In this document: one piece after another, positions 2,736-29,472 of the stretch
How the letters are laid out: each line of letters starts with the position of its first letter
How positions within the stretch are numbered: position 1 is the first letter of the stretch
Virus record (IMG/VR): IMGVR_UViG_3300045972_000131
Location: 1 to 32,154 of that record
Length of the DNA stretch: 32,154 nucleotides
Direction: 5' to 3' (one strand)
Source: a virus
Made by a program: the position numbers and the translations under genes
The notes under the pieces: model-generated
Database searches by the model: none
What the model saw: the letters and a program-made list of their open reading frames with translations, nothing else
Told to the model about the DNA's origin: nothing

Positions 2736-3257
2736 CTAAAGTTTGACTTGGCGCTTGCGAGCCCCGCCTCTTCCGTGGTTTTTACCGAACGAGGTCTGCT
2801 TCCCGCGAGAATCCCCGGTCGCTCGCAAAGCAACAGAAACTGTCGACTGCGAGACGCCCATGCACTCGGCGATGTCTGCTTGCGAGAGCGCCCCGCTTAA
2901 TGCAGTGAGCACCGCCCTATCCAGAACTGTTTTTTCGCGGCCCCGATGTCGACCCTTAGCGACCATGTCTCGCATGTTGTCGGTGGTCGTACCCAAAAAC
3001 AGGTGCTCCGGTCGATGACATCGCGGGTTGTCGCATTTATGAAGAACAAGCAGCCCCGCTGGGATTGGTCCGACGTAGGCTTCGTAAGCGACGCGATGTA
3101 CCATAAGTTTTACGCCGCCGACTTTCATCTGGGGGTATTTATGGTTGGGGTCGAGCAGTGTTTCCCAGCACTCGCCGTGGAGTGTTCGGTATCGCTCAAG
3201 TCTTTCGGCGTTTAAGAGCCCGACTTTACGGACGGGTTTACTTGGAGTATCGGACAT
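2736..3257 (-). CDS. Free-standing HNH homing endonuclease with C-terminal HTH (173 aa)
   Basis: The frame is open to 3380, but the ATG at 3257 (MSDTPSKPVRK) has GGAGG six bases upstream. That ribosome site is encoded inside the last codons of the polymerase gene, and the two genes overlap by 20 bases. Residues about 50-105 form an HNH_3-type nuclease: LMVHRVAYEAYVGPIP, then LHKCDNPRCHRPEHLFLGT and a DNMRDMVAKGR tail, a common phage HNH signature. Residues about 110-140 (LSQADIAECMGVSQSTVSVA) are a helix-turn-helix for site recognition. The C-terminus is very basic. It is an expected mobile gene beside a polymerase that already carries two inteins. Confidence 0.88.
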   Translation of the reverse strand: MSDTPSKPVRKVGLLNAERLERYRTLHGECWETLLDPNHKYPQMKVGGVKLMVHRVAYEAYVGPIPAGLLVLHKCDNPRCHRPEHLFLGTTTDNMRDMVAKGRHRGREKTVLDRAVLTALSGALSQADIAECMGVSQSTVSVALRATGDSRGKQTSFGKNHGRGGARKRQVKL

Positions 3258-6200
3258 CGAAACCTCCCTCGGAATTGAGTGGCAGGTCCATACACCAAGG
3301 CAGCGGTGTGCGCATGGCTTTCGTGAGTTCGCGGAACGCTGCTTCAGCAGACCGCTTCGGCGCGCACAGTACGCCTTCATCGTGGGTAATCATCACCACA
3401 CGACGTTTCGGCTGCACCATCAGCAGCTGTTCGGCGACGATGATCCTGGCGAGTGCCTGGACGATGTTTTCGCACAGCAGACCGCCGTAGATTTTCTTGC
3501 GCATGTCCTTCGACTGGTAGGACCACTCGTCCCAGCCCTTGTCGCCTTTGCTCATGCGCAGGTCGGGATACTTCAGGCACATGCCGTTCGGGAGCCAGAC
3601 ACGCTCCTTCTCCCAGCTGAGTGCTCCATAGGCGCCAGTGCGGCCAGCAGCCATGTCTTCGATGATTCCTTTACAGATCTCCCAACCGGCCTGGATACGG
3701 TGGTTTTTGCGACGGTACGTGTTGATGATTCGCTTGCACTCGTCCAGGCTGAAGAACACCGGTGGGCCGCCGAGAGCACCCTTAGCCAGCGTGATCTGCA
3801 GTTTGGCGGCTCCCATCTGGAAGCCAAGGCCCAGCACGCAGTTATGGACGATGACGGGGCCGTCATCGGTCTGTACAGTGAACCGTTGGTTAGGTCCTGC
3901 GTTTGCGAGATCGTAAGTTCGCGTTGTCTGCTTCGAGGTTGCGAATTCGCTGTTCGAGGTCGGCGATATGCCGCTTGTTTTTAAGATTGTCCGACTTTGA
4001 AGCGAACCGGATGTTGCCTGGCTCATAGTTGAGGTCAGTGTTGATCCTGTCCATCTCCAAGGCAGGGACATCCCATCCAGGCAACGTTTGTACAAACCGG
4101 AGAAAAGATGCTCGATCTTCGCGCCACTCGACAAACACCGAAATCCCGCGTTGACCATAATGGACAAACGATGCGTTATTTTCGTTGCCGCATCTCGATA
4201 TAGCCGCAGACAAACGGTTGAGAAGGCGGGTACGGTGTTCGTCGTCTGCCATAGCGTGCTTGTAGAGCCAGTACCGTTTAGTGCTAGACGCAATTTTTGC
4301 GCAGGTGTTGCACCGAGTTGTACGTCCGCTTTTGAGGCTGCTTGTATAGACCATTGTCTCGGCTCCGCATGAACATCGGCATACTGGGCGGTACCCCCAA
4401 GGTTTGCCTTCGGGGGTAGAGTAGTGCTCCCACCTGACGATGGCGAGGTCGCCAAAGATAGTGCCGACTGGAAAAGCGAACGGTCGGTAAGGACCGCGGA
4501 CCACTCCAGCCACCCATGTCCCGTCAGGATTTCGTGGTCCGGCGTAGCGCACAGTCCCCGGTGTGTCAGCGTTTCCTTGACTCCCTGATCCAGAAGTCCG
4601 TCGTGTTTTACCCATGAGTTCCCATCCCATAACAAATCCGTTGATCTAACATCTATAATAGACCTAAGACCGTGGTTTGTATATACGCGTGTATCGGGTC
4701 CAAGGCAGACCTTGCCGACGAAGCGCTCCATCTTGTCGGCCTTGGTGATCTCGCGGCCGTAGATCGCTGCAGCGAAGTTGCAGTAGGCATCGAGCCCTGT
4801 GCCAGCGTCGGAATCTCTGAAGGCGTCCATGAGGTCGTGCTGACCCCATAGCCACCCGTTGACTCGGGCCTCAATTTGGCCCGAGTCGCCTACGACCAAG
4901 ACATAGCCTTTCGGCGCAAGAATCGACAGGCGTAACTCACCGCCTCGGGTCAGGTTCTGCATGTTCATCTTGTTGTTGCCACCCCAGCGGCCAGTGTTCC
5001 CGGTCACTACGATTTTTCCGTTCTGGCGCATCAGAAAATATCCTGTCTGCGTCGTCGGGCAATACACTTTTCCTGCATGGTGCTGGGTCATGTAATGCTT
5101 TGGCTCCGACCGAGTCGTTCTGTCCTCGCGGATGTAGACGCGGTACGAATCTGACCAAGCCCCTCGTGTGCGCTCCGAGATATACGCTGACATTCCCGCC
5201 AAATGGGCGACGGTCTGAACTGTTTCCGCATTCGTTTGGTTTGTCGTGGAGTACGTGAAGCCTTTGCCGTGAGGCTCGACATCGCCATCCCAGTAGCTCA
5301 GTTCAGCGATGAATGCAGTCTTTGCTTGTGCTGGGGCGGCGTAGACCGCAGGCAAAAACTGCTTGGTTTCTTCGTCAATCAGCGTCAGCAATAAGTGCAT
5401 CTTTGCCGCTCCGACCGTAATTCTGGTGGAGCCTTCAGAGTCGACGTATTCGGTGAATGGTATATTTGCTTCGCCAAGGAGCTGGCGGCACCGCGCTATT
5501 TTTCGCTCCTTACGGAAACCGAAACGTATGCAGCGGCCCTGGCTCACATCAATGCGGATGCTACCGTCCGCTTGGGTCATGGCAGCGAGTCGCATGTCGA
5601 GACTACTGACCTTGGATTCGCCGTCGAGCACCCCCGAAAGGGGGAGTTCAAATCGACTAGCGGCCACAACACCAGCTTGCCGAGGCTTAAATTTGCCGTG
5701 GCTCGTGAACCCCGGAACGTTATGGCCTCGCGTGTAGCTTGCCGAGTGGTACCGCGAATCGGCGACAACAATCTGTTCGTCGACCACAAACTCATTTGCT
5801 GTGGCCGCAGCAAACTCCATACTGAAGTTGGGCGACCACTGCGCGATGTCGCCCCCTTGCCATACGTCGAGCCGCTGCCACCCATTGCGTGTCAGAACTT
5901 CGGCGTCGCCGAGAAGGCAATGTGCACGGTAATACGCATAGCCGACTGGGAGAGACATACCGTTAGCGCCAGCAGTGAGGAACCGCTGCGCTCGCGTTAT
6001 GTTGGTGGTGGACTTCACAGCCAGCCGGCAGTCGACAAGCGCACGCATGCGGTCTTGTCGTGCGGCCAGCTTGGCGATGTCCGTTTTTTTGTTGAGGTTC
6101 AGGCCGGTGCTGAGGCCGTCGATCCGGTCGGGCAGCTCAATGAAGTCGGCGTCATCCTTGGCGAATGCATACGTCCACTTGTCTTCATCCTTGCGCTCGC

Positions 6201-7107
6201 TGACCGGCTTCTTGATCCAGGCTGGACTGATCTTGGTCGGTGGCTCAACGCCCTCGGCACGCAGCAGATTGGCGAAGCGGTCGTTACTGCCGATGATTCG
6301 CTTGACCATTAGCATGTGCCGCTCTTTACCGACCAGCTCGCGTTCGACCTTGGTCTTGAGCAGTTCCTTCTCTTCGTACTGGGTGACATCGACGATCGAC
6401 ATCATCAGGTCTTCGCGGTACTTGACCTCGCGGGCCAGCTCGATCTCCACGCGCGGCAGGTCGACTTTCAGCACCGGGTCGCAGAACATCGACACGGTCA
6501 TGTGGATGAGTTTCAGCTCGTTGGCCGGGTAGGCGTCGAGCATCTTCTCGAAGATCAGCAGGCACAGCTCTACATCCATCGCGCAGTAATCTGCGGTCGC
6601 GGTGTAGAGTGGTTTTGGGAGAGTGACGACGCCTTTGGACAGCTCAAGGACGTTGGGGATTTTGTTTCCGACTCCATAGTAGACAGCAACTTCATCGAGA
6701 GAAGCCCCAATATCATTGCTATGAAGACCGCGCGCCATACTGAGCGTGTCAAAATAAAATCGAGGCACACAGCCGAAGTGATGAGACAAGATAAACCCAT
6801 CAAAAGCAGTGTTATGGCAAAGAAGGTCATGGGTTTTCCAGTTGATTAGTTTGAGCATCCCGGCGATCTTCGTCGTCGGGACCACTTTCGTTTTGCCCCT
6901 GCCGATCTTGATGCCGACCATGTGCGCCTTGAAGCGCGGGTCCCGGATGTACTCGCTGGTGGACATCTTGCGCAGCGTGTAATCAACGTCCCAGTAAGTC
7001 TCAAAGTCGAGCGTGACGAGATGCGTCCAGTCGACCTTCGGCTTCAGGAACGAAGGGCGAGTGAAAACCTGTTCGACGGCCTTCTTAACGGCGTTGGACC
7101 AGCTCAT
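3238..7107 (-). CDS. Family A DNA polymerase interrupted by two inteins (1289 aa precursor)
   Basis: Replicative phage DNA polymerase. The 3'-5' exonuclease motifs are DFET (D34, E36), N99...D103 and Y174..D178. The polymerase motifs are TGRWGGN...NMQNL (705-719), motif A (VGDSGQIEAR, D741/E746), motif B (R795...K799...then GLGFQMG) and motif C (H1242-D-E). Residues 397-704 and 801-1089 are inteins; removing them leaves about 692 residues, close to the T7 polymerase length. Intein 1 enters right before the Thr of TGR and intein 2 inside motif B after KV, so the enzyme should be inactive until spliced. The start overlaps the upstream gene by ATGA, and the HNH gene overlaps its 3' end. Confidence 0.95.
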   Translation of the reverse strand: MSWSNAVKKAVEQVFTRPSFLKPKVDWTHLVTLDFETYWDVDYTLRKMSTSEYIRDPRFKAHMVGIKIGRGKTKVVPTTKIAGMLKLINWKTHDLLCHNTAFDGFILSHHFGCVPRFYFDTLSMARGLHSNDIGASLDEVAVYYGVGNKIPNVLELSKGVVTLPKPLYTATADYCAMDVELCLLIFEKMLDAYPANELKLIHMTVSMFCDPVLKVDLPRVEIELAREVKYREDLMMSIVDVTQYEEKELLKTKVERELVGKERHMLMVKRIIGSNDRFANLLRAEGVEPPTKISPAWIKKPVSERKDEDKWTYAFAKDDADFIELPDRIDGLSTGLNLNKKTDIAKLAARQDRMRALVDCRLAVKSTTNITRAQRFLTAGANGMSLPVGYAYYRAHCLLGDAEVLTRNGWQRLDVWQGGDIAQWSPNFSMEFAAATANEFVVDEQIVVADSRYHSASYTRGHNVPGFTSHGKFKPRQAGVVAASRFELPLSGVLDGESKVSSLDMRLAAMTQADGSIRIDVSQGRCIRFGFRKERKIARCRQLLGEANIPFTEYVDSEGSTRITVGAAKMHLLLTLIDEETKQFLPAVYAAPAQAKTAFIAELSYWDGDVEPHGKGFTYSTTNQTNAETVQTVAHLAGMSAYISERTRGAWSDSYRVYIREDRTTRSEPKHYMTQHHAGKVYCPTTQTGYFLMRQNGKIVVTGNTGRWGGNNKMNMQNLTRGGELRLSILAPKGYVLVVGDSGQIEARVNGWLWGQHDLMDAFRDSDAGTGLDAYCNFAAAIYGREITKADKMERFVGKVCLGPDTRVYTNHGLRSIIDVRSTDLLWDGNSWVKHDGLLDQGVKETLTHRGLCATPDHEILTGHGWLEWSAVLTDRSLFQSALSLATSPSSGGSTTLPPKANLGGTAQYADVHAEPRQWSIQAASKADVQLGATPAQKLRLALNGTGSTSTLWQTTNTVPAFSTVCLRLYRDAATKITHRLSIMVNAGFRCLSSGAKIEHLFSGLYKRCLDGMSLPWRWTGSTLTSTMSQATSGSLQSRTILKTSGISPTSNSEFATSKQTTRTYDLANAGPNQRFTVQTDDGPVIVHNCVLGLGFQMGAAKLQITLAKGALGGPPVFFSLDECKRIINTYRRKNHRIQAGWEICKGIIEDMAAGRTGAYGALSWEKERVWLPNGMCLKYPDLRMSKGDKGWDEWSYQSKDMRKKIYGGLLCENIVQALARIIVAEQLLMVQPKRRVVMITHDEGVLCAPKRSAEAAFRELTKAMRTPLPWCMDLPLNSEGGFDVRYSK
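3841..4707 (-). mobile_element. Polymerase intein 2 with out-of-frame nested HNH gene
   Basis: This is a 289-residue intein (polymerase residues 801-1089). Splicing block A starts with Cys1 (CLGPDTRVYTNHG). Block B has the TPDH motif (CATPDHEIL). Blocks F and G read TYDLANAGPNQRFTV...GPVIVHN, with Cys as the +1 extein residue, so all the usual catalytic residues for self-splicing are present. Between blocks B and F the intein frame gives a Ser/Thr/Leu-rich sequence with no endonuclease motif. In the +2 frame of the same strand there is a full HNH endonuclease (3890-4615). The insertion point is polymerase motif B. Confidence 0.92.
3890..4615 (-). CDS. HNH-type homing endonuclease nested out of frame inside intein 2
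   Basis: This frame overlaps the polymerase precursor entirely and is read in a different frame of the same strand. In order it has an N-terminal zinc-ribbon module (GTIFGDLAIV at about 51-60, Cys79/81/83-Gly, LKSGRTTRC, Cys102/105), then NRLSAAISRCGNE, HYGQRGISVFVEWRED (152-167) and EMDRINTDLNYEPGNIRFAS (187-206). This is the classic layout of phage HNH/AP2-type homing endonucleases (GR.I.V...W....F, then DRID..GNYEP.N.RW). The C-terminus is a short coiled coil (DLEQRIRNLEADNANLRS). The start could also be the ATG at 4630; 4615 was chosen for its GGGA upstream, though the spacing is short. The coherent domain shows the frame is real, not a shadow. Confidence 0.85.
   Translation of the reverse strand: MGKTRRTSGSGSQGNADTPGTVRYAGPRNPDGTWVAGVVRGPYRPFAFPVGTIFGDLAIVRWEHYSTPEGKPWGYRPVCRCSCGAETMVYTSSLKSGRTTRCNTCAKIASSTKRYWLYKHAMADDEHRTRLLNRLSAAISRCGNENNASFVHYGQRGISVFVEWREDRASFLRFVQTLPGWDVPALEMDRINTDLNYEPGNIRFASKSDNLKNKRHIADLEQRIRNLEADNANLRSRKRRT
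4996..5919 (-). mobile_element. Polymerase intein 1 with in-frame LAGLIDADG endonuclease
   Basis: This is a 308-residue intein (polymerase residues 397-704). Block A starts with Cys1 (CLLGDAEVLTRNGWQ) and block B has TRGH. The two LAGLIDADG-type helices are DMRLAAMTQADGSI and FIAELSYWDGD, both retaining the acidic residue, so the endonuclease could be active. The C-terminal block ends VVTGN, followed by Thr as the +1 residue. The usual penultimate His is a Gly here, a variation seen in some inteins. It is inserted immediately before the TGR motif of the polymerase. This is the conventional fused design, in contrast to the other two inteins in the window. Confidence 0.92.
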
Positions 7108-11857: not shown

Positions 11858-12273
11858 AGCGCTTCCTTCAACTGTTCACGAACGTCGTGTTCGGCGCCTT
11901 GGCTGAAATTAACGCTCACGTACCTGCTGATCTCGACATACGTGAAGAGGTCGTAATTGCTGTCGCCAAAAGAGTCGGTCTGGTTGTCATCGTCGTTTTC
12001 GCCAACAATGCACTTTCGCCCTTCCAAACTTTCTTCCACCCCTGCCAAGTCCCACAAAACGTTATGGGTTATCACGTCCGGGTAGTCGGGGTACCACTTA
12101 ACGTCGGTCGCAGAGAATCCGATGTAGAGCAAGTCGGGTCCGATCTCACCGACAGTGCATTGCTTCAACGCGAGCGTAACTTCAGGGTGTGCAATACGGC
12201 ACTTGACCAAGAAACTGATTACGTTGTCCTTGGGGCCGGCGATGATGTAGGCGACATCTGAGCGGTAGCCCAT
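11830..12273 (-). CDS. Phage protein of the MGYRSDVAY type (147 aa)
   Basis: The start at 12273 (MGYRSDVAYIIAG) shares one base with the stop of the VWA gene (TGATG). This N-terminus is widespread in phage hypothetical proteins, in which MGYRSDV is strongly conserved. A mixed alpha/beta sequence follows (DLLYIGFSATDVKWYPDYPD, then an acidic DDDN stretch). The C-terminus overlaps the start of Gly/Asp-repeat protein B. The function is unknown. Confidence 0.75.
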   Translation of the reverse strand: MGYRSDVAYIIAGPKDNVISFLVKCRIAHPEVTLALKQCTVGEIGPDLLYIGFSATDVKWYPDYPDVITHNVLWDLAGVEESLEGRKCIVGENDDDNQTDSFGDSNYDLFTYVEISRYVSVNFSQGAEHDVREQLKEALCPQPSSSS

Positions 12274-13400
12274 CACACCACCTCGATCTGAACTGTCTCG
12301 CCCCAAGGCGCGACTTCATCCGATGTCGACACCCACAGTGTTGGATACTCAGGCTCTGCGAATCCGGTTGGGCCGAACAAGTCCGTCAGATAAATCAAGC
12401 AGGTCGGGCGCAGGCCGCGTTTTTCGACCTCGTCAAAGACAGGCTTGAATGCTGTACCGCCGCCACCGCAGGCTTTCAGTGCGAACGCGTCGTGCCGCGC
12501 GAATGTGTCGACCTTGTTGACTGCCGCGTCGCAGTAGACGACATGGACGTTGGCCGGCATGGTCTCGGCGATGATGCTCTCGCATTCCGCACTGAAGGCA
12601 TTCAACGTGCGCTGGTCGATCGAGCCGGAGGTGTCGACGCCGATGACGATGTCGCCCATGCTCTCGTTGTATAGGCTTGGCATGTAGACGCCGTGGACCA
12701 GCATGGCTTTGTTCGGGCGCATCCACGAGTAATCGTCTTTGCTGCGCTCGGTCACGAACCGGCGCAGCGTGGCCTTCCAGTCGACCTGCGGTTTGAGCAG
12801 ACCGTCGATGAAGCGCTCCAGCGTGGCCGGCAGCTTGCCCATGATCTTGGCGGCTGAGGCTGCTTGGATCGTGGCTACTTTCCAGTCGCGCGCGGCTTCG
12901 GCTTGTGCAGCCGGGTCGACCTCGCCCTGCTCGGTGTCGTCGAGCGGATCGCCGTGGCCATTGCCAGGCGAGTCGCCACCGTCGCCACCGCCCGGTGGCG
13001 CGTCAGGCAGCTTCGAGTAAATCTCGTCAGCGGACATGCCCTTGTAGGCTGGATCGAGCAGCCAATTCTCGCCGATCTCGAACCCAGCATCTTCGAGGAT
13101 CTGGTTGTTCGCATAATCCGTGGCTTGGTTCCACTTCTTATGGTCACGTCCGCCTTTGCGGCCCATTGTGTCCAGCACGCAGTGCATGACCTCGTGGGCC
13201 ATCGCCGACTTGGTGAGAGCGGCCGACAGCCCGTTGATGAATTCCGGGTTGTACTTAATGACCTTGCCGTTGACCGAGAGAGTCTTGGTGCCGGTGTCTT
13301 CGATCAGTGGCATCTTGAGCGCGAGCGCGCCGAAGAAGGGCTGGTCGAGAATCAGCGTGGCGCGTGCGCGGGTGAGTTTGATTGCGGCTTCTTGGTTCAT
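12273..13400 (-). CDS. VWA-like protein with HExxH peptidase-like domain (375 aa)
   Basis: The N-terminal part carries HEVMH (69-73), the motif of the putative metallopeptidase domain found in DUF2201-type proteins. A Gly/Asp/Pro-rich linker (about 134-165) follows. The C-terminal half is a von Willebrand A fold with a MIDAS motif DTSGS (256-260) and later TDLFGP. Such proteins work as partners of MoxR-type AAA+ ATPases, and one is encoded about 3 kb upstream in the same orientation (16444-17424). The start at 13400 overlaps the 49-aa gene by ATGA. The pair probably forms a metal-dependent chaperone or remodelling machine of unknown target. Confidence 0.88.
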   Translation of the reverse strand: MNQEAAIKLTRARATLILDQPFFGALALKMPLIEDTGTKTLSVNGKVIKYNPEFINGLSAALTKSAMAHEVMHCVLDTMGRKGGRDHKKWNQATDYANNQILEDAGFEIGENWLLDPAYKGMSADEIYSKLPDAPPGGGDGGDSPGNGHGDPLDDTEQGEVDPAAQAEAARDWKVATIQAASAAKIMGKLPATLERFIDGLLKPQVDWKATLRRFVTERSKDDYSWMRPNKAMLVHGVYMPSLYNESMGDIVIGVDTSGSIDQRTLNAFSAECESIIAETMPANVHVVYCDAAVNKVDTFARHDAFALKACGGGGTAFKPVFDEVEKRGLRPTCLIYLTDLFGPTGFAEPEYPTLWVSTSDEVAPWGETVQIEVV

Positions 13401-13546
13401 GGTTTCGCTTTCGTGCATAAACATAGTTGACTGGTGCCCGGCCGAGTAATCGGGGTTTTGCAGACGGCGCATTTCCACTGCGGTTGTGACAGCCCATATA
13501 GGCGGATGTCGGCAACTCTATCCAGCACTGTTTTTGGGAGGTTCAT
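13397..13546 (-). CDS. Tiny Cys-pair (zinc-knuckle-like) protein (49 aa)
   Basis: A short gene that starts at an ATG at 13546, overlapping the preceding stop (ATGA), and ends in an ATGA overlap with the VWA gene. The protein begins MNLPKTVLDRVADIRLYG and carries WKCAVCK (CxxC) and, 15-17 residues later, LCLC, enough for one zinc-binding knuckle. The exact fit between two overlapping neighbours and the Cys pairs make it credible despite its size. The function is unknown. It could be an adaptor for the VWA protein translated next. Confidence 0.6.
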   Translation of the reverse strand: MNLPKTVLDRVADIRLYGLSQPQWKCAVCKTPITRPGTSQLCLCTKAKP

Positions 13547-26805: not shown

Positions 26806-26948
26806 TGCACAACCTGCCCTACACCTACCAGTTGGATGAGCCGTCCGAACCGCACCCGACCAGGATCGAGCTGACCGCCGCGCGCCGCCCGCTGCTGACG
26901 CCGCCAAAACCCCAAGACCAGGAAAAAGATGGCAGCAGCGACGACTAA
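26805..26948 (+). CDS. Small protein between TerS and TerL (47 aa)
   Basis: The ATG at 26805 shares one base with the TerS stop (TGATG), and the gene overlaps the TerL start by 20 bases. The TerL ribosome site (AGGAAAAAG) lies inside it. It is Pro rich with an acidic end (MHNLPYTYQLDEPSEPHPTR ... KDGSSDD), probably unstructured. It may couple translation or link the two terminase subunits, which is inference from position only. Confidence 0.65.
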   Translation: MHNLPYTYQLDEPSEPHPTRIELTAARRPLLTPPKPQDQEKDGSSDD

Positions 26949-29472
26949 ATCACCCGCCGCGCTCGCCGCGCAGCAGGAAATGGCCAGCCGGGTGCTGTCG
27001 CGCCGCCGCCTGCTGCCGTTTATCCAGCGCATGAACCCGAAATACATGGCTGGATGGGTTCACGAGGACATCTGCAGGCGTCTGGAGCGCTTCTCCGACG
27101 ACATAGCGGCCGGTCTGAGCCCTCGTTTGATGCTGCTGATGCCACCACGCGCAGGCAAGTCCGAAATCGCCTCCAAGACCTTCCCAGCGTGGCATCTGGG
27201 CCGTCATCCAGACCATGAAATCATCGCGTGCTCGTACAACGTCGGCTTGGCGATGGACTTCAGTAAGCGGATCAAGGCGCTGCTTGAGGACAGCGCGTAC
27301 CAGACGGTGTTCGATGCGCGCTTGGACCCCGACAATAAATCCTCCGAGAGTTGGGGGCTGCTGAAACAGCCGGGATCGTATGTAGCAGCAGGCGTCGGCG
27401 GCGGAATTAACGGTAAAGGGGCGCACTGTCTCCCAGCTGGAACGATGATAGCTACCGAGATAGGAGAGATTGACATTGAGCACCTTTACCAGTTATCATC
27501 TCCGCCAAAGGTGCTCTCCTATGATCGCTCTGCCGGTACAGTCGTCGCGCGTCAGATCCTTGCGTTCTCGACTCGCCAGACCGCAGACCTGTATGAGATC
27601 ACCACAACCTCGGGAGTTACGCTCGTTCTGACCGGCGACCACCCGGTATTTTTGCCCGACGCAAACCAGTTTGTACGGGCCGACGAACTGGAGCGAATGT
27701 ATGGCACGACCGAGAGTGATGATCGACCTGACGTGTGCACTATGCAGCGCTGCGTTCCAGCGCGCACGATGCGACCACAACAAGTCTCTGAAACTCAACT
27801 GCCGCGAGTTTTATTGCTCAGTGGCGTGCAGCCGGCAGCACCACGCGCTGAAGAACAGAAAGCTCTGCACACAGTGCTCGGTGCCGTTGACGGTAGTGGG
27901 GCGGAGCCGAAATGCGAAATACTGCAGCAAGGAGTGCTGGCGAATGGCCTATCCGTTGCCGATCGTATCTTGCCCTCGGTGTGGCGTCGCCTACGCGCCC
28001 TTGAGCGCGCGTACCACGTACTGCTCGGGCGACTGCGCGGACGCAGCACACTCCGATCGCATGACCGGAACGGGGAATTCTCACTACAAGGACGGTCGGA
28101 GCTACGCCAAGTGGTTCCAAGAGATGAGGCCGTTGATTCTGGAGCGCGACGCGGGATGCGTCGTATGCAAGAAGACGACAAAGCCCCACGTCCACCACGT
28201 CGATCACGACCCGACGAACAACCGGGCGAGGAATCTTGTCGTTCTGTGCGCCAAGCACCACATGGTTCACCACAAGTCGGATACGACACCTTGGCCGTGG
28301 TTAGGCGAATACGCAGCGAGCAGGTCACAGTCTATGACCTCGAAGTGGGAGGAACGCACAATTTCTTTGCTGAAGGAATTTGCGTCCACAACTGCCTGAT
28401 TATTGATGACCCGCTAAAAAACGCCGAGGAAGCAGACAGCGCCACTACGCGGGAAGGCATCTGGAACTGGTACGGGTCGACCGCCTACACTCGGCTTGCG
28501 CCAGGCGGCGGCGTACTTATTATACAAACATGGTGGCATGACGATGACCTCGCCGGTCGATTGCAGGCGGAGATGGCCCGCGCCCGACCGGATGACATGG
28601 ACGTGGATCGCTTCGAGGTAATTAAGTACCCAGCGATCGCCGAACACGACGAGTATCTGGATACAGCCACCGACATGATCGTCTATGACGCCGCGCCGGA
28701 GCAGGGCCGGCTGCTGCGCAACAAGGGGGAAGCGTTGCATCCTGCGCGTTTTGACCTGAAAAAGCTGAACACAATCAAACGGACTATCCCCCAGCGCTTC
28801 TGGTCGGCACTGTATCAGCAGAACCCGGTGCCGGATGATGGTGCGTACTTCACGAAGGATCAGTTCAAGCGCGGGCCGATCCCGGAGACGAAGAACTCCA
28901 AGGTCTACATCGCCTGGGACTTTGCCATCAGCGAGAAAGCCCAGAACGATTACACGGTCGGCACCGTGGGCCTGCAGGATTACGACGATATGCTGCACGC
29001 CGCCGAGGTTGTCCGTTTTAAGTCAGCCGACGCTTTTTTCATTGTCGAGTCTATTCTCAGTCTAGCTAAGAGGTGGTACCATCCGAGCCTACAGCTGGGC
29101 TTCGAGGACGGGCAGATTTACCGCTCGATCGAGGCACTGCTCAAAAAGCGCATGCGTGAGACGAAGTTCTACCCGTCGATCGTCGTGCTCAAACCGATCA
29201 CCGATAAGATGGCCCGCGGAAGGGTGCTCCAGGGCCGGATGCAGCAGGGCATGGTCAGTTTTAACCACCAGGCCGAGTGGTACGACACAGTGAGAAACGA
29301 GATGCTGCGCTTCCCAGCGGGTGTCCACGATGACTGTGTTGACTCCTTGGCGTGGATGGCCCAGATGGCAGTTGGCAGCGAGCCCCCGAAGGCACCGAAG
29401 CCAAAAGCGCCGAAATCCTGGAAAGACAAGCTCAACGGCGGAGTCGCCGGTGTTTCACACATGGCGGCTTGA
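26929..29472 (+). CDS. Terminase large subunit interrupted by an intein (847 aa precursor)
   Basis: The packaging motor. The ATPase has Walker A PPRAGKS (72-78) and, after the intein, Walker B CLIIDDP (489-495). The C-terminal nuclease has IAWDFAISEKAQNDYT with the first acidic residue and HDDCVDSLAWMAQ as the last motif of the RNase H-like fold. Residues 167-488 are an intein inserted exactly between GGGINGKGAH and the Walker B strand; without it TerL is about 525 residues, a normal length. The motor should be inactive until the intein is removed. The start has AGGAAAAAG upstream, within the 47-aa gene. Confidence 0.95.
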   Translation: MAAATTKSPAALAAQQEMASRVLSRRRLLPFIQRMNPKYMAGWVHEDICRRLERFSDDIAAGLSPRLMLLMPPRAGKSEIASKTFPAWHLGRHPDHEIIACSYNVGLAMDFSKRIKALLEDSAYQTVFDARLDPDNKSSESWGLLKQPGSYVAAGVGGGINGKGAHCLPAGTMIATEIGEIDIEHLYQLSSPPKVLSYDRSAGTVVARQILAFSTRQTADLYEITTTSGVTLVLTGDHPVFLPDANQFVRADELERMYGTTESDDRPDVCTMQRCVPARTMRPQQVSETQLPRVLLLSGVQPAAPRAEEQKALHTVLGAVDGSGAEPKCEILQQGVLANGLSVADRILPSVWRRLRALERAYHVLLGRLRGRSTLRSHDRNGEFSLQGRSELRQVVPRDEAVDSGARRGMRRMQEDDKAPRPPRRSRPDEQPGEESCRSVRQAPHGSPQVGYDTLAVVRRIRSEQVTVYDLEVGGTHNFFAEGICVHNCLIIDDPLKNAEEADSATTREGIWNWYGSTAYTRLAPGGGVLIIQTWWHDDDLAGRLQAEMARARPDDMDVDRFEVIKYPAIAEHDEYLDTATDMIVYDAAPEQGRLLRNKGEALHPARFDLKKLNTIKRTIPQRFWSALYQQNPVPDDGAYFTKDQFKRGPIPETKNSKVYIAWDFAISEKAQNDYTVGTVGLQDYDDMLHAAEVVRFKSADAFFIVESILSLAKRWYHPSLQLGFEDGQIYRSIEALLKKRMRETKFYPSIVVLKPITDKMARGRVLQGRMQQGMVSFNHQAEWYDTVRNEMLRFPAGVHDDCVDSLAWMAQMAVGSEPPKAPKPKAPKSWKDKLNGGVAGVSHMAA
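27427..28392 (+). mobile_element. TerL intein with out-of-frame nested HNH gene
   Basis: This is a 322-residue intein. Block A has Cys1 (CLPAGTMIATEIGEIDIEHL). Block B is TGDHPVFLPD with the expected His. Blocks F and G are TVYDLEVGGTHNFFAEGICV then HN, with Cys as the +1 extein residue, so it is fully equipped to splice. The in-frame region between B and F (about residues 95-295) is Arg/Gln/Ser-rich nonsense with no nuclease motif. The +1 frame over the same DNA is a complete zinc-ribbon HNH endonuclease. Confidence 0.92.
27701..28399 (+). CDS. Zinc-ribbon HNH homing endonuclease nested out of frame in the TerL intein (232 aa)
   Basis: ATG at 27701 with GGAG 7 bases upstream, just after splicing block B of the host intein. 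Three Cys-pair ribbons occupy the N-terminal half: CALC...FYCSVAC, CTQC...YCSKEC and CPRC...YCSGDC. The HNH nuclease follows: CVVC (153-156), HVHHVDHDPTNN (163-174) and LCAKHHMVHH (182-191), with all catalytic and zinc residues present. The frame runs through the sequence encoding the C-terminal splicing block and stops at TGA 28397-28399, five bases into the extein. The ordered domain structure and good ribosome site show that this, not the TerL frame, carries the endonuclease. Confidence 0.88.
   Translation: MARPRVMIDLTCALCSAAFQRARCDHNKSLKLNCREFYCSVACSRQHHALKNRKLCTQCSVPLTVVGRSRNAKYCSKECWRMAYPLPIVSCPRCGVAYAPLSARTTYCSGDCADAAHSDRMTGTGNSHYKDGRSYAKWFQEMRPLILERDAGCVVCKKTTKPHVHHVDHDPTNNRARNLVVLCAKHHMVHHKSDTTPWPWLGEYAASRSQSMTSKWEERTISLLKEFASTTA

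Follow-up and report, generated by a model that had tools for sequence, protein, structure and literature searches.

Inteins are classed either as large, with an in-frame endonuclease, or as mini, with none, and intein endonucleases are mostly encoded in frame. The locus described here raises the question of how an intein devoid of any recognizable nuclease in its own frame can contain a complete HNH gene in another, and whether both readings of the same DNA are real. It is found in the gene of the large terminase subunit (TerL) of a virus known from IMG/VR record IMGVR_UViG_3300045972_000131; "the window" designates hereafter the whole stretch analysed, positions 1 to 32,154 of that record. 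A preliminary description had proposed that a mini-intein carries an HNH gene in a different frame, and this proposal is borne out by homology, substitution pattern, stop avoidance, structure prediction and recurrence in 41 clusters.

Intein architecture of the TerL gene

The terL ORF (26929-29472, + strand) is a single open frame of 847 aa that encodes a large terminase subunit precursor with an intein. Terminase profiles (PHROG_38, 1.9e-94; PHROG_4758, 3.8e-57; Pfam Terminase_6N, 6.5e-7) match the two flanks of an insert, and the intein profiles NCBIfam intein_Nterm (1.6e-8), NCBIfam intein_Cterm (1e-7) and Pfam Intein_splicing (4.8e-12) match between them in the TerL frame. The following elements are delimited in this frame:

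27427..28392, + strand: intein, 322 codons in the TerL frame, 966 bp, from Cys (27427) to Asn (28392)
27427..27696, + strand: N-terminal splicing half, about 90 residues, blocks A and B with Cys1 and T..H, matched by intein_Nterm
28279..28392, + strand: C-terminal splicing half, about 38-40 residues, blocks F and G, ending in HN, matched by intein_Cterm
28393..29472, + strand: C-extein, beginning with Cys+1

The two halves together constitute a complete Hint domain. Cys1 is invariant in 15 members of the family, as are T69 and H72 of block B, and the C-terminal junction of the window, VHN-C, is that of class 1 Hint inteins. The insertion point lies in the ATPase domain just before Walker B (GAH-CLIIDDP, the hyphen marking the insertion). 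This in-frame insertion is absent from homologues: the empty-site relatives L024 and L025 read GAH-LLLIDDP at this position, and intein-free relatives, these two and others, mostly show GAH followed by [I/V/L]LxIDDP. Since these empty junctions can be compared with the window, both ends of the intein are fixed. The splicing blocks are intact, as first described, and the search of Pfam, NCBIfam and PHROG profiles returned no nuclease match in the TerL frame of the intein, the middle of which, about 190 codons, has no match at all in this frame.

Structure prediction separates the same regions. In the AlphaFold model of the TerL reading, both splicing halves (residues 1-90 included) reach a pLDDT of about 90 and the middle only about 35, which suggests a Hint fold with a disordered middle. 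With Foldseek, the Hint part was matched to the splicing domain of the Mtu RecA intein (9e-6, TMt 0.81), and the TMt values for solved inteins range from 0.81 to 0.85.

On the basis of these features, the insert can be predicted to be a self-splicing intein. The stop-free TerL frame is not in itself proof of splicing, because any TerL made through the insert needs it, and the HNH gene might conceivably have been inserted as a tolerated loop that is never removed, comparable to the ShiLan methylase insertion (PMC11855218). Such an unspliced loop is nevertheless very improbable in view of the complete Hint halves with Cys1, T..H, the penultimate His and Asn, and Cys+1, of the confidently predicted intein fold, and of an insertion that adjoins the catalytic Walker B motif. 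A group I intron with a free HNH gene would be in keeping with the HNH genes that phage introns often carry; the intein splicing motifs, a host frame open throughout and the lack of any Rfam match to a group I RNA core up to E 1 with permissive filters make this reading practically negligible.

A complete HNH gene in the +1 frame

Over the same bases, the +1 frame contains the following elements:

27701..28399, + strand: nested gene of a predicted HNH homing endonuclease, +1 frame, 232 aa, ATG at 27701, TGA at 28397-28399
27734..28036, + strand: three zinc ribbons formed by CxxC/CxxxC pairs, residues 12-112 of the nested protein
28127..28285, + strand: HNH nuclease core, residues 143-195, with H165, H166, N174, N178, C183, H187 and H191 invariant

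The profile search that the preliminary description had called for identifies this product as an HNH endonuclease (PHROG_1271, 7.1e-17), Pfam HNH_3 remaining just short of its model cut-off (1.1e-4), and protein searches match it to sequences of Gordonia phage Clown (3e-39) and Synechococcus phage S-EIVl (4e-18). The three ribbons and the intact HNH domain announced at the outset are found as C12/C15-C39/C43, C56/C59-C75/C79 and C91/C94-C108/C112, and as an H-N-H active site with its zinc ligands (H165/H166, N174/N178, H187/H191). Among 34 family members, these active-site residues and the third ribbon are invariant, and the first ribbon is nearly so. In the subclade of the window, His replaces Cys at one zinc ligand of the LCxxCH motif (LCAKHH; likewise in L022 and L040). 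The AlphaFold model of the nested protein has a mean pLDDT of 89.8, and its Foldseek matches are limited to weak HNH-fold hits (Cap5, IscB, DotN; best E 0.03), which agrees with an array of separate small zinc-ribbon domains. The nested protein can thus be read from its sequence as an HNH homing endonuclease that probably spreads the insert.

Selection on the two frames

A comparison of substitutions in both frames among relatives, proposed as a check of the nested gene, favors it. Between the window and L022, the HNH core has accumulated 54, 43 and 102 substitutions at HNH codon positions 1, 2 and 3, and its identity is 69% in the HNH frame, 40% in the TerL frame and 42% in the third frame. 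Counted at TerL codon positions 1/2/3, substitutions amount to 96/78/215 in the C-extein and to 97/51/40 in the middle. Because the substitution phase flips in this way, the middle is under selection in its HNH reading and not for its TerL-frame residues, which are conserved no better there than those of the third frame.

The TerL frame of the middle is nevertheless kept open. In the window it contains no stop, against a mean of 4.6 in protein-preserving codon shuffles (P(none)=0.0025), and the third frame contains 10. Over 41 cluster representatives, 0 TerL-frame stops are observed where synonymous shuffling predicts 377, the third frame having 482; codons ending in T are found before AAN, AGN or GAN in 0 of 2352 cases, against 1669 of 6945 elsewhere (p about 1e-237). 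Judged from sequence, both frames of the intein middle are real, HNH being selected for its sequence and TerL only for freedom from stops.

The two genes also overlap in the C-terminal splicing half, where blocks F and G, read at +1, give the nested tail (SMTSKW...STTA*). As originally reported, the stop of the nested gene lies five bases into the extein: it derives from the junction codons TGC CTG and begins at base 5 of the C-extein. The accompanying idea that two proteins constrain the same F/G codons holds only weakly. Substitutions in the overlap (6/5/14 at TerL positions 1/2/3) follow TerL coding, identity is 76% in the TerL frame versus 24/39 residues in the nested frame, and the nested frame stops before the end of the intein in S-EIVl, L012, L013, L015, L016 and L017. 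Since the overlap evolves as TerL coding and several relatives stop earlier, the tail is probably passive and carried along.

Predicted expression of the nested gene

A ribosome-binding site had been assigned to the nested gene, together with internal initiation:

27690..27693, + strand: GGAG, putative ribosome-binding site, 7 nt spacing to the ATG at 27701

The site is present, and its strength (dG -5.6) is unexceptional against the background of the same gene (p=0.24). In L022, the ATG occupies the same position and is preceded by GGAAG, and strong pairs of Shine-Dalgarno (SD) sequence and ATG are found in L144 and L010. Over 36 lineages, SD-like sites exceed their gene background (combined p 7e-7; individually <0.05 in 7/36), which supports internal initiation moderately. 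Start sites and ribosome sites differ from lineage to lineage, so that internal initiation stands as the best reading with variable signals. A promoter-like TTGACA-18-TATCAT (11/12) at 27470-27499, 200 bp 5' of the nested gene and the sole match of its kind in the window, was set aside as an internal promoter: it is conserved neither in L022 nor in the other members tested.

The minority rival to internal initiation is a programmed +1 frameshift near the end of the N-terminal splicing half, which would produce a fusion of N-intein and HNH and no free HNH. This would fit the uniform +1 phase of all 110 TerL-type loci, the several lineages in which the nested frame is open through the N half without a good start near the zinc ribbons (no start is seen there in L107, L108, L128 and L218), and a TTT-T run within the open overlap of the window. 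It has little room in other lineages, because nested-frame stops lie immediately 5' of the ATG in L004 and L215 and about 24 nt 5' of it in L022. No common slippery site was seen, the good SD-ATG pairs in L144 and L010 point the other way, an unrelated family in DNA polymerase sits in +2, and the uniform phase is accounted for by a single origin. Frameshifting is accordingly unlikely, and the nested HNH is most likely expressed by internal initiation, as its sequence context suggests. Such initiation may uncouple the dosage of the endonuclease from that of TerL, as the preliminary description proposed.

Distribution, mobility and decay of the family

A scan of viral contigs with a single HNH protein as query returned no match, and alignments were needed. 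Alignment-based scans of IMG/VR and one genome scan yielded 110 loci, some of them representing the same contig fetched twice; they form 56 clusters at 95% aa identity, 41 at 80% and 33 at 60%. They come from Gordonia, Synechococcus and a Fictibacillus genome, among other hosts or sources; in Clown (Gordonia) and S-EIVl (Synechococcus), two isolated phages that possess the nested layout, only TerL is annotated. Distant, free-standing and non-nested HNH matches (L018-L020, L149-L178), many of them IscB-like, were left out of the family. One of these, L020:2806-3741, lies directly 3' of terL, before a portal-like gene, and encodes a zinc-ribbon protein with distant similarity to the nested HNH.

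In 110/110 loci the HNH is +1 relative to TerL, in none is it in frame, and the end of the intein is at or adjoining Walker B in every one. This universal nesting is not a selection effect, because the search was independent of an open TerL frame. An endonuclease of the usual in-frame kind, thrown out of frame by an indel or a sequencing error, would require a frame change that is not seen in TerL; with the same phase in 41 clusters and none in frame, this explanation is already refuted by the family. Four TerLs (L023, L031, L060 and L084) carry instead an ordinary in-frame LAGLIDADG intein at the P-loop. The TerL of L010 (L010:2788-5691) apparently contains two inteins, one at the P-loop and one with a nested HNH at Walker B.

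The element is present in 3/81 related TerLs, each bearer being isolated among empty alleles, and the starred branches of the tree force three separate changes; such a patchy presence among empty alleles is characteristic of homing endonucleases. This presence map of 81 TerLs was used in place of a comparison of the HNH and C-extein trees, from which an argument for transfer between lineages was dropped on account of the too weak support of the HNH tree. Part of the spread may be vertical, since HNH and extein divergence correlate (r=0.89).

Decayed copies can also be observed. In L138 the nested frame contains a stop and TerL is still open; in L147/L148 the intein is exactly 126 codons shorter than in close relatives and the HNH frame is interrupted, TerL again being open. 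This deletion looks like a natural step toward a mini-intein. Homologues with a broken nested frame and a conserved TerL-frame middle had been named as evidence against the nested gene: the broken copies exist, and the middle of the TerL frame is stop-free but not conserved. Such a decay pattern should be that expected of a selfish endonuclease lodged in a gene that cannot do without its own frame.

A second family in DNA polymerase and helicase inteins

The phage of the window possesses three inteins, one in TerL and two in a DNA polymerase:

3238..7107, - strand: family A DNA polymerase precursor with two inteins
4996-5919, - strand: DNA polymerase intein 1, with an ordinary in-frame LAGLIDADG domain
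3841..4707, - strand: DNA polymerase intein 2, 289 aa, from CLGPDT to VIVHN-C, PHROG_93 1.3e-14
3890..4630, - strand: HNH gene nested in the +2 frame of intein 2, 246 aa, PHROG_374 2.1e-34

The other two frames of intein 1 contain 11 and 12 stops. In intein 2, no Pfam nuclease domain is found in the host frame, and the +2 frame is open for 251 codons. The HNH nested there is unrelated to that of TerL; no clear ribosome site was found for it, and its ATG lies within the LWDG motif of the intein. The same layout, always +2, occurs in Salmonella Jerseyvirus phages, Spp11 being one, in Pseudomonas phage MR14 and in several IMG/VR phages; at the Jerseyvirus loci (L223, L225) and in MR14 (L224) it is unannotated. 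Inteins of SNF2 helicases contain an HNH of the DNA polymerase type at +2 in L234/L235 (L235:2548-5088) and, in a different SNF2-helicase intein, at +1 in L236 (L236:2405-4735). Host-frame stops in this second family number 0, versus 47.7 expected.

Nesting is thus not peculiar to TerL, since these other inteins have nested HNH genes too. On balance, it probably represents a general and long-lived mode of endonuclease carriage in phage inteins that has been overlooked in annotation: it would involve two or more unrelated HNH families, use either alternative frame (+1 in TerL, +2 in family A DNA polymerase, either one in SNF2 helicases) and have persisted through deep divergence. If so, nesting would free the nuclease from the splicing protein, the host frame being kept open by stop avoidance alone.

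Elsewhere in the window, a 401-aa ORF (12273-13478, - strand) bears the HNH endonuclease label of PHROG_1314, yet matches DUF2201 metallopeptidase/VWA-like Pfam models, and the label looks doubtful.

Proposed mechanism

The main reading, to which a probability of about 85% can be given, is that a mini-intein occupies the TerL ATPase domain and has its homing endonuclease encoded separately, by a gene nested at +1 and probably internally initiated. Translation of TerL would pass through the middle as a meaningless, stop-free and probably disordered linker, around which the Hint halves would fold and bring about excision of the intein. A separate translation event, initiated within the intein (ATG 27701 after GGAG), would produce a free zinc-ribbon HNH nuclease. 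This nuclease should cut intein-free TerL genes, the repair of which would copy the whole 966-bp element. Splicing, internal initiation, cleavage and homing are here predicted from sequence.

Significance and comparison with known systems

Apparent mini-inteins of this kind hide a full nuclease gene in another frame, and surveys limited to one frame would miscount active homing elements. The arrangement also offers a clean test case for overlapping genes, with one frame selected for sequence and the other only for openness, as well as many natural linkers apparently tolerated by inteins. It suggests in addition a route by which an endonuclease can be gained or lost without touching the splicing protein, as in L147/L148 with their difference of 126 codons. 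The DNA polymerase case occurs in isolated and sequenced Salmonella Jerseyvirus phages, which puts tests within reach.

In the literature searched, with preprints outside its coverage, no report of an intein with an out-of-frame endonuclease was found. The closest case is the out-of-frame HNH in a methylase of ShiLan, argued by its authors not to be an intein (PMC11855218, 2025). The same article calls overlapping frames frequent, citing actinobacteriophage inteins with "non-canonical architecture" (Gosselin et al. 2025, bioRxiv 2025.01.02.630785) and, likewise on overlapping frames, "Non-canonical inteins" (Gorbalenya 1998); either of these works, known here through PMC11855218, may describe a similar case. 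As far as could be checked, the family size, the fixed phase, the stop avoidance, the decay series and the second family do not appear in the literature consulted.

The TerL element shares with ShiLan a zinc-finger HNH out of the host frame, a stop-free host frame and a patchy distribution (PMC11855218). ShiLan differs by a host frame without splicing domain, where the TerL insert matches intein models and the Hint fold, by a non-essential methylase as host, by the lack of a ribosome site and by its few members. With ordinary inteins, such as the TerL inteins of Kelley et al. 2016 (PMC5050341), it has in common the Hint fold, the TerL ATPase sites and an endonuclease between the splicing halves; in those inteins, as in the P-loop ones of L023, L031, L060 and L084, the endonuclease is fused in frame with the splicing domain, whereas all 110 loci described here have it as a nested +1 gene. 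Like mini-inteins, the element lacks a nuclease in its host frame and has splicing halves about 90 and 40 residues long; unlike them, it keeps a stop-free linker of about 190 codons because another gene occupies it. In split inteins ("fractured genes"), a free endonuclease gene lies between the halves and is expressed apart from the splicing domain, as proposed here. The difference is that the TerL host ORF is continuous, that splicing would occur in cis and that the nuclease is an HNH.
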